From NCBI GenBank assembly GCA_030613245.1, contig JAUWMI010000041.1:1-38801 (forward strand): DNA of 38,801 nt, given 5' to 3'. Within the stretch, counting starts at the first letter, position 1, and every line of letters starts with the position of its first letter. The translations under genes and the position numbers were made by a program. The notes beneath the pieces are model-generated. The model worked only from the letters and a program-made list of their open reading frames with translations, did no database searches and was not told where the DNA came from. Below are positions 35,925-38,801 of this stretch, piece by piece. The stretch is from Candidatus Sumerlaeota bacterium. Lineage in GTDB: Bacteria; Sumerlaeota; Sumerlaeia; MWCT01; JAUWMI01.

Positions 35925-37850
35925 TCATGCGGACTGCTTTGTATAATTGAGTAGGCCGCCGGCTATCAGAATGGCGCGCTGACGCTCGCTGAAGGGATTC
36001 TGCATGAGATACTCGCGTCCTTTGGTGGTATTCTTGACGCGAATCGGCTTGTCTGCCTGGAGCTCTTCCTTAACGTTTGGCAATTCGAGCCGGTCGCCCG
36101 GCGATATCGTGTCATAGTCCGCGGGCACTTTGAATTGGAGTGGCAGGATGCCGAAATTAATAAGATTTGCCTGGTGGATACGCGCGAACGACTTTACCAT
36201 GACTGCTTTAATTCCAAGATACATGGGTGCAAGGGCTGCATGCTCGCGGCTGGAGCCCTGGCCGTAGTTTTCGCCACCTACCACAAAGCCCCCACCAGCG
36301 GCTTTTGCACGGCTGGCAAATTGCGCATCAACAACCGAGAAGACGTATTCGGAGATCGCCGGGATATTCGAACGCAGAGGCAGGATCTTCGCGCCAGCAG
36401 GCATGATATGATCCGTAGTGATGTTATCTTCCACCTGCAGCAGCACCGAGCTGGACAAGGCATCGGGCAGCGGTTCGTTTATGGGCAGCGGTTTGATATT
36501 GGGCCCACGAATAATCTCCACCTTATCGGGCCGTCTGGAGGGAGGAAGAATCATCGAGTCGTCAATGATGAACCGGGTAGGCGCCTTAATGCGCACGCCT
36601 GCACCGAGTTTGCGTGGGTCAGTGATTTCGCCGTAAATGGCTGCTGCTACGGCAGTCTCCGGGCTGCAAAGATAGACCTGGGCACTCTTTGTTCCAGAGC
36701 GTCCGAGAAAGTTGCGGTTGAACGTGCGCAGCGATACTGCGTCAGAGGGTGGGGCCTGGCCCATGCCAATACAGGGGCCGCACGTACATTCCAGCACGCG
36801 AGCGCCGGCACTGATAATATCCGCAAGCCCACCATTGGCTGTAATGTTCTGGAGCACCTGCTTTGATCCGGGTGAAATGCAGAGACTGACATCTTTGTGG
36901 GCGCCGTGCTTGCGCAATACGCGCGCGACCGTCATCAGGTCCGTATAGGATGAGTTCGTGCAGCTCCCGATTGCCACCTGCTGCACCTTGGTGCCGCGCA
37001 ATTTCTTCACTTCGATGACATTATCTGGAGAATGTGGTTGGGCAATGAGCGGCTCGATTTTCGAAAGATCGAGTTCGATCACTTCGTCGTACGTCGCATT
37101 CGGGTCAGCTTCGAGAAGCTTCCAGTCCTTGGGCCGCTTTTGCAGTTTGAGGAATTCGCGCGTGACTTCGTCGCTCGGAAAGATCGAAGTTGTGGCTCCG
37201 AGCTCGGCGCCCATGTTTGTAATAGTTGCGCGCTGGGGCACACTGAGCGACTTGAGGCCTGGGCCGGCATATTCGATGATTTTCCCGACGCCGCCTTTCA
37301 CAGTGAGTCGCCGCAACAGCTCGAGAATCACGTCCTTCGCACTCACCCATGGGCTGAGTTTGCCTGTGAGCACGACCTGACAGATTTTCGGCATTGCCAG
37401 GTGAAAAGACCCGCCACCCATAGCCACTGCCACGTCAAGGCCGCCGGCGCCAATAGCGATCATGCCAAGGCCACCAGCAGTTGGCGTATGACTGTCGGAC
37501 CCGAGCAGGGTTTGTCCCGGCATACCAAAGCGCTCCAGATGCACCTGATGGCAAATGCCATTGCCTGGTCGCGAAAAGTAAATTCCGTATTTGGCAGCGA
37601 CAGATTGCAGATAGCGATGATCATCCGCGTTCTCAAAGCCTGTCTGCAAGGTATTGTGGTCTACATAGCTGACCGACCGTTTGGTTTTGACTTTCGGGAT
37701 TCCCAGGGCTTCGAACTGAAGGGAAGCCATTGTACCCGTGGCATCCTGGGTCAGGGTTTGGTCAATACGAATAGCGATTTCACTGCCAGGCGTGAGATCG
37801 CCTGACACGAGATGCTTTTTGAGAATTTTTTGCGCAAGTGTAAACCCCAT
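35925..37850 (-). CDS. Aconitate hydratase (mitochondrial/Aquifex-type)
   Basis: 641 residues; isomerises citrate to isocitrate through a [4Fe-4S] cluster. Cluster ligands are Cys297 (GSCTNS), Cys357 and Cys360 (CTCGPCIGMG). The N-terminal catalytic region has DQTLTQDATGTMASL and the LLGSDSHTPTAGGLG strand. The swivel domain holds GGENYGQGSSREHAALAPMYLG and KSFARIHQANLINFGILPL, very close in wording to mitochondrial aconitase. It is much shorter than AcnA (~890) or AcnB (~865) and fits the ~640-residue class sometimes called Aquifex-type. AAAGGAG precedes the ATG. leuB lies 249 bp downstream on the same strand. Confidence 0.92.
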   Translation of the reverse strand: MGFTLAQKILKKHLVSGDLTPGSEIAIRIDQTLTQDATGTMASLQFEALGIPKVKTKRSVSYVDHNTLQTGFENADDHRYLQSVAAKYGIYFSRPGNGICHQVHLERFGMPGQTLLGSDSHTPTAGGLGMIAIGAGGLDVAVAMGGGSFHLAMPKICQVVLTGKLSPWVSAKDVILELLRRLTVKGGVGKIIEYAGPGLKSLSVPQRATITNMGAELGATTSIFPSDEVTREFLKLQKRPKDWKLLEADPNATYDEVIELDLSKIEPLIAQPHSPDNVIEVKKLRGTKVQQVAIGSCTNSSYTDLMTVARVLRKHGAHKDVSLCISPGSKQVLQNITANGGLADIISAGARVLECTCGPCIGMGQAPPSDAVSLRTFNRNFLGRSGTKSAQVYLCSPETAVAAAIYGEITDPRKLGAGVRIKAPTRFIIDDSMILPPSRRPDKVEIIRGPNIKPLPINEPLPDALSSSVLLQVEDNITTDHIMPAGAKILPLRSNIPAISEYVFSVVDAQFASRAKAAGGGFVVGGENYGQGSSREHAALAPMYLGIKAVMVKSFARIHQANLINFGILPLQFKVPADYDTISPGDRLELPNVKEELQADKPIRVKNTTKGREYLMQNPFSERQRAILIAGGLLNYTKQSA

Positions 37851-38058: not shown

Positions 38059-38090
38059 AACGCCCCTACAGCTTATAGCGTGGCACTACA
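38059..38090. repeat. Truncated unit of the 3' tandem array
   Basis: AACGCCCCTACAGCTTATAGC followed by GTGGCACTAC is the end-of-unit sequence seen after the third palindrome in each full unit downstream. The gap 37851-38125 contains nothing else clear. Confidence 0.6.
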
Positions 38091-38125
38091 AGAGGAAATA
38101 ATGCTCGATACTGTTGTTCTGTAAT

Positions 38126-38801
38126 GTAAGGGCGTTAAATTTAACGCCCCTACGCATTGGATGGAACATTTGTCATCGCGACTAGGGTTTACCCATCGTG
38201 CGAATATTATGGCCAATCCATATGTAGGGGCAGACCTGCGTGTCTGCCCTGGGTATGTCTAGTTTCAAAAAGGGCGAACACATGGGTTCGTCCCTACAGC
38301 TTATAGCGTGCCACTTACAGACCTTTCACGACATGCGTACTAGCTTTTCTTTTCCGGGAGATCATTATAGCTAGGAATGATTGTAAGGGCGTTAAATTTA
38401 ACGCCCCTACGCATTGGATAGAACATTTCTTATCGCAGCCTGGGTTTACCCATCGTGCGAATATTATGGCCAATGCATTTGTAGGGGCAGACCTGTGTGT
38501 CTGCCCTGGATGTTTCTAAAAAGGGCGAACACCTGGGTTCGCCCCTACAGCTTATAGCGTGCCACTTACAGACCTTTCACGACATTCGTACTAGCTTTTC
38601 TTTTCAGCGAGAGTATTATAGATTGTAGGGCGTATTGCAATACGCCCCTACGCATTGGATGGAACGTTTGTCATCGCGACCAGGGTTTACCCATCGTGCG
38701 AATATTATGGCCAATGCATTTGTAGGGGCAGACCTGTGTGTCTGCCCTGGATGTTTCTAAAAAGGGCGAACACCTGGGTTCGCCCCTACAGCTTATAGCG
38801 T
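38126..38801. repeat. Tandem array of ~250-bp units with three palindromes each
   Basis: Unit 1 is 38126-38382 (257 bp), unit 2 38383-38624 (242 bp) and unit 3 38625-38801 (cut by the window end). Each unit holds, in order, palindrome A (38126-38153, 38383-38410, 38625-38651), the spacer CGCATTGGAT...AATATTATGGCCAAT, palindrome B with CAGACCTG/TGTCTGCC (38224-38250, 38481-38508, 38722-38749) and palindrome C with GGGCGAACAC/GGTTCGCCCCTAC (38270-38297, 38521-38548, 38762-38789), then AGCTTATAGCGT. The units are nearly identical except that palindrome A of unit 3 has a different, still self-complementary core. There is no ORF. The array ends the window and may continue. Confidence 0.88.

Follow-up and report, generated by a model that had tools for sequence, protein, structure and literature searches.

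The end of contig JAUWMI010000041.1 from Candidatus Sumerlaeota bacterium (assembly GCA_030613245.1) carries a tandem array of palindromes at positions 38125-38801 of the window, which is the whole 38,801-nucleotide stretch analyzed here. We give a probability of roughly 0.87 to the reading that this array is a cluster of repetitive extragenic palindromes (REPs) seeded by REP-associated tyrosine transposases (RAYTs) and amplified in tandem by the host, similar to bacterial interspersed mosaic elements (BIMEs) or REP doublets forming hairpins (REPINs). That the array is a REP cluster is nearly certain. Seeding of its REPs by RAYTs is quite likely from our analysis, and the host probably drove the tandem amplification. 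The array is a large, well-preserved example of an already known type of bacterial repeat and constitutes no new system.

Tandem Repeats Finder (TRF) ranks the array above all other tandem repeats in the window, with a period of 241, 2.7 copies, 89% matches and a score of 1022. Alignment gives distances of 257 and then 241 bp between unit starts, and the three units are 257, 241 and at least 179 bp long (Table 1). The number of units is a minimum, since the window ends with its contig (G000:C68, 38801 bp) inside unit 3. These values bear out an earlier sequence-only reading, which had described units of about 250 bp in at least 2.7 copies running off the window. Each unit consists of palindrome A, a spacer of about 70 bp, palindrome B, a short spacer, palindrome C and a tail. 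The order A-B-C is kept in all three units, as that reading had claimed, but the palindromes themselves are not constant: A of unit 3 has the stem GTATTGCAATAC, where units 1 and 2 have GTTAAATTTAAC. A decayed fragment of a further unit (unit 0) extends the array leftwards.

All array palindromes carry a GTAG foot and a GGGC/GCCC base, with the core GTAGGGGC...GCCC. The pattern GTAGGGGCN{6,30}GCCC has 18 matches in the window, eight of them in the array, compared to 0.06 expected from shuffled sequences. Eight of the nine array palindromes match it, the exception being C of unit 1, which differs by one change. Palindrome B is paired tail to tail with A, across a spacer with complementary ends, and head to head with C as a heterodimer. 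Several features that identify REPs are present: short hairpins closed at the base by G-C pairs and bearing the tetranucleotide GTAG at the foot, many copies that lie mainly outside genes, head-to-head and tail-to-tail dimers with favored spacing, and associated RAYT genes that carry the same REPs. The arrangement of REP dimers repeated in tandem together with flanking DNA, which identifies BIME or REPIN clusters, is found as well. The sequence-only reading had set the array apart from a simple REP cluster. This was wrong in kind: all of the palindromes are GTAG-tagged REPs, and tandem clusters of REP dimers with flanking DNA have been published (PMC3733652). The array is compound only in that one unit combines three REP families.

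Across the whole genome, the REP core has 536 matches (265 and 271), compared to 11 (4 and 7) for a reversed control pattern. A detailed census covered 1.93 of 4.29 Mb (45% of the genome), taken as stretches from an assembly of 97 contigs. This sample contains 321 tagged hairpins, versus three in the reversed sequence, at 250 places. Only 17 of these places fall inside open reading frames (ORFs) of at least 200 amino acids and 233 (93%) lie outside, though such ORFs cover 77% of the sampled sequence. REPs have 63 neighbors within 150 bp, where about five are expected. The pairs comprise 25 head-to-head, 16 tail-to-tail and 10 head-to-tail arrangements, with favored spacings in the first two, and a tail-to-tail spacer of 60 bp is conserved in several C-B pairs. 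The genus and family are represented in collections by this genome alone, and relatives from the same order have between zero and nine matches to the REP core. The array spacer is absent from the genome_contigs and viral_contigs sets. Only two other REP-bearing tandem arrays occur in the sample, on contigs C86 and C23, and both have two copies. Contig C86 has a 158-bp tandem duplication (G000 C86:66313-66631) of a coding-like stretch that terminates at a stop codon, after which a REP follows. The abundant double-foot REP of the GTTTAATTAAAC kind lies at the center of a dispersed element, with about 80 bp of conserved flank on either side (G000 C42:31911, C50:12760, C7:30241, C23:20992, C31:87 and C31:16906).

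The genome also encodes Y1_Tnp proteins that match the NCBIfam RAYT model NF047646. Two RAYT-family proteins score above its cut-off, and C50 falls slightly under it (70.8 versus 80). Searching at the protein level yields five RAYT genes or remnants, all of one kind (C50, C74, C65, C50b and C1), and in each of them a REP lies in frame between the HuH motif, which it closely follows, and the catalytic-tyrosine motif. In C50 this slot reads KGVLQYAPT, which is the GTATTGCAATAC kind found as A of unit 3. In C74 it reads VGADLCVCP..GEHTGSPLH, which is the B-C dimer, and in C65 it reads RGV(L/Y)LNAPT, which is the GTT..AAC kind resembling A of units 1 and 2. The slots of C50b and C1 hold REPs of other kinds. 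The reading frames of C50 and C1 are open, and those of C74, C65 and C50b seem to be interrupted or truncated.

These genes resemble subclass 2.4 of the RAYT (TnpA_REP) family, or Bertels group 4, which is characterized by the motifs NH[IFV]H, WQ and YIxNNP, by canonical long and double-foot REPs, and by in-frame REPs between the HuH motif and the tyrosine (Quentin et al. 2018, PMC6006769). The motifs are NHFH/WQ/YIQNNP in C74, NHLH/WQ/YIINNP in C50, NHLH/WQ/YIVNNP in C1 and NHLH/LQ/YIQNNP in C65. Departures from the subclass are L in place of I, F or V and, in C65, LQ in place of WQ, and some of the five copies lack an intact frame. In-frame REPs in RAYT genes are a published feature of subclass 2.4 and not new.

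The finding of the same REP families in frame in RAYT genes, along with the literature, argues for seeding by RAYTs. Judging from established RAYT work, the hairpin of a REP and its GTAG foot would be recognized by the transposase when the DNA is single-stranded. RAYTs would have placed A, a double-foot REP, close to the head-to-head heterodimer B-C, upstream of the aconitase-family gene. Host replication slippage or unequal recombination between palindromes, rather than the transposase, would then have duplicated the trio in tandem with its flanking DNA. Host-driven growth is suggested because flanking DNA is duplicated and because local REPIN amplification and loss have been ascribed to host machinery in published work. 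Any effects on nearby transcripts, such as hairpins terminating or stabilizing RNA, would be secondary.

Several observations weigh against this account. Units 1 and 2 have an A stem (GTTAAATTTAAC) that is near but not identical to the abundant GTTTAATTAAAC kind. The C74 and C65 RAYTs are apparently broken, and no RAYT gene is seen in the window. In a set of 60 other genomes, counts of Y1_Tnp genes bear no simple relation to this REP core, probably since RAYTs of other subclasses have different REPs. Nor was transposition itself seen.

The repeated palindromes and conserved spacers, together with strong folding of unit 2 as single-stranded DNA (z = -5.5), could instead indicate a dedicated chromosome-organizing or protein-binding site, of the gyrase- or IHF-type BIME, that is maintained for DNA topology. 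This role is improbable; the sequence-only reading had listed a chromosome-organizing or recombination site, or a non-coding RNA array, as possible. The array spacer has no other copy in its own genome, and the palindromes belong to several families with hundreds of dispersed copies, so nothing sets this locus apart. The exchanged A stem in unit 3 also speaks against it. The array starts 275 bp upstream of the start of the aconitase-family gene, and no special role for the array was found. Even less probable is an array of non-coding RNAs, with a structured RNA transcribed and processed from every unit. The hairpins are strong, and there are two terminator-like hairpins, located at palindrome B in units 2 and 3, but no known structured RNA in Rfam scores above its gathering threshold, there is no excess of promoter-like sites, and the same palindromes also occur as dispersed DNA repeats. 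A covariation test would need more than three units. Least probable of all is an assembly artifact in which one REP-rich unit was repeated by the assembler, as the array's place at a contig end in an assembly of 97 contigs might suggest, because the units differ in length (257/241), substitutions, indels and the entire A stem, and a decayed further unit lies on the left.

Clustered regularly interspaced short palindromic repeats (CRISPR), with short identical repeats and unique spacers, do not describe the array. Its conserved blocks are the palindromes, and the stretches between them recur from unit to unit, in agreement with the sequence-only reading.

The RAYT-seeded, host-amplified cluster has close published relatives. 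Di Nocera et al. (2013, PMC3733652) described clusters of REP dimers reiterated in tandem with flanking DNA. GTAG-tagged REPs of this type share with the present array the GTAG foot, stems of 6-13 bp, head-to-head and tail-to-tail dimers, heterodimers, structured tail-to-tail spacers, mainly intergenic locations and RAYTs in the genome. Unlike those clusters, the array unit unites three REP families (A and the B-C heterodimer), and no array uniting REPs of several RAYTs was found in the literature searched. REPIN and BIME clusters of E. coli and Pseudomonas similarly contain inverted REP pairs and undergo local tandem amplification (PMC8049555), but the unit described here measures ~241-257 bp, with an additional third palindrome and a long spacer. 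A puzzling array is placed in a known class, and each of its palindromes is tied to a REP family found within a RAYT gene of the same genome.

The array is a small record of REP cluster growth and of stem change amid constant surroundings, which bears on how new REP families arise. The flanks of A are 95% and 89% alike between units 2 and 3, whereas 8 of 20 hairpin positions differ, all of them compensated. When flanks were compared with REPs masked, 16 pairs had both flanks alike but unlike stems. Many come from one group of nine loci (Table 1), and one is the trivial pair of B and C within the array. For the nine-locus group, exchange and independent insertions into a common flanking repeat account for the data equally well. 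In the array itself, it is simpler to suppose an exchange that followed duplication. It is a speculative and rather doubtful extension that REP sites are exchangeable sockets, in which a stem is swapped for the REP of another RAYT while the flanks are kept, as between units 2 and 3 and perhaps at the nine other places, with the in-frame REPs of RAYT genes as possible donors.

Table 1. Coordinates of the array, its neighboring gene and related loci
Feature	Position	Strand	Details
Unit 0, decayed end	38061..38087	+	C-palindrome arm + tail CGCCCCTACAGCTTATAGCGTGGCACT; 27 bp, 93-96% identity to same stretch in units 1 and 2; own-genome match
Unit 1 (257 bp)	38125..38381	.	TRF and alignment
Palindrome A, unit 1	38126..38153	-	GTAAGGGCGTTAAATTTAACGCCCCTAC; intact GTAG foot on - strand; near double-foot REP
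A-B spacer, unit 1	38154..38223	.	Complementary ends GCATTGG..CCAAT(G)C; exclusive to this array
Palindrome B, unit 1	38224..38249	+	GTAG-tagged REP
Palindrome C, unit 1	38272..38297	-	Inverted REP; head-to-head heterodimer with B (GTAG feet outside)
Unit 2 (241 bp)	38382..38622	.	TRF and alignment
Palindrome A, unit 2	38383..38410	-	Stem GTTAAATTTAAC
Palindrome B, unit 2	38481..38506	+	
Palindrome C, unit 2	38523..38548	-	
Unit 3 (at least 179 bp)	38623..38801	.	Cut at contig end; TRF and alignment
Palindrome A, unit 3	38625..38651	-	Different stem GTATTGCAATAC; flanks conserved with unit 2
Palindrome B, unit 3	38722..38747	+	
Palindrome C, unit 3	38764..38789	-	
Nearest gene, aconitase-family protein	35925..37850	-	Pfam Aconitase, E = 7e-113
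RAYT genes or remnants, five loci	L033 1414-2103 and 2245-2751; L251 1513-1902; L249 1183-1692; L248 1516-2052		
Nine REP places	G000 C49:58457, C50:34397, C50:34422, C59:20308, C65:110996, C65:111042, C86:83478, C16:53793, C31:23726		Homologous flanks, several different stems
B-C dimer in RAYT slot	L129, L135, L157, L160, L166, L168, L201, L202, L205, L208, L214, L218		Either orientation; many phyla

The exact B-C heterodimer occurs in at least 115 contigs from many phyla. Unlike a typical REP family, which is bound to a species, the GTAGGGGC core and the B-C pair are common to many phyla. Viral spread was considered as the main route, and a single IMG/VR contig carries the pair, so its spread is not mainly viral. 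A RAYT frame is found at 13 of the dimer loci, and in 12 of these the dimer lies inside the frame at the same protein position. Its length there is 1 modulo 3 in all ten cases of one orientation and 2 modulo 3 in both cases of the other, while outside RAYT frames lengths of 0, 1 and 2 modulo 3 number 35, 30 and 40. Because the dimer always keeps the frame in RAYT genes and falls into all three classes elsewhere, selection appears to be keeping the coding copies open.

One further ORF, on the - strand of L249 (2077-3276), is membrane-protein-like and ends in RRGVLLNAPDTPA, which resembles a REP read as a C-terminus.
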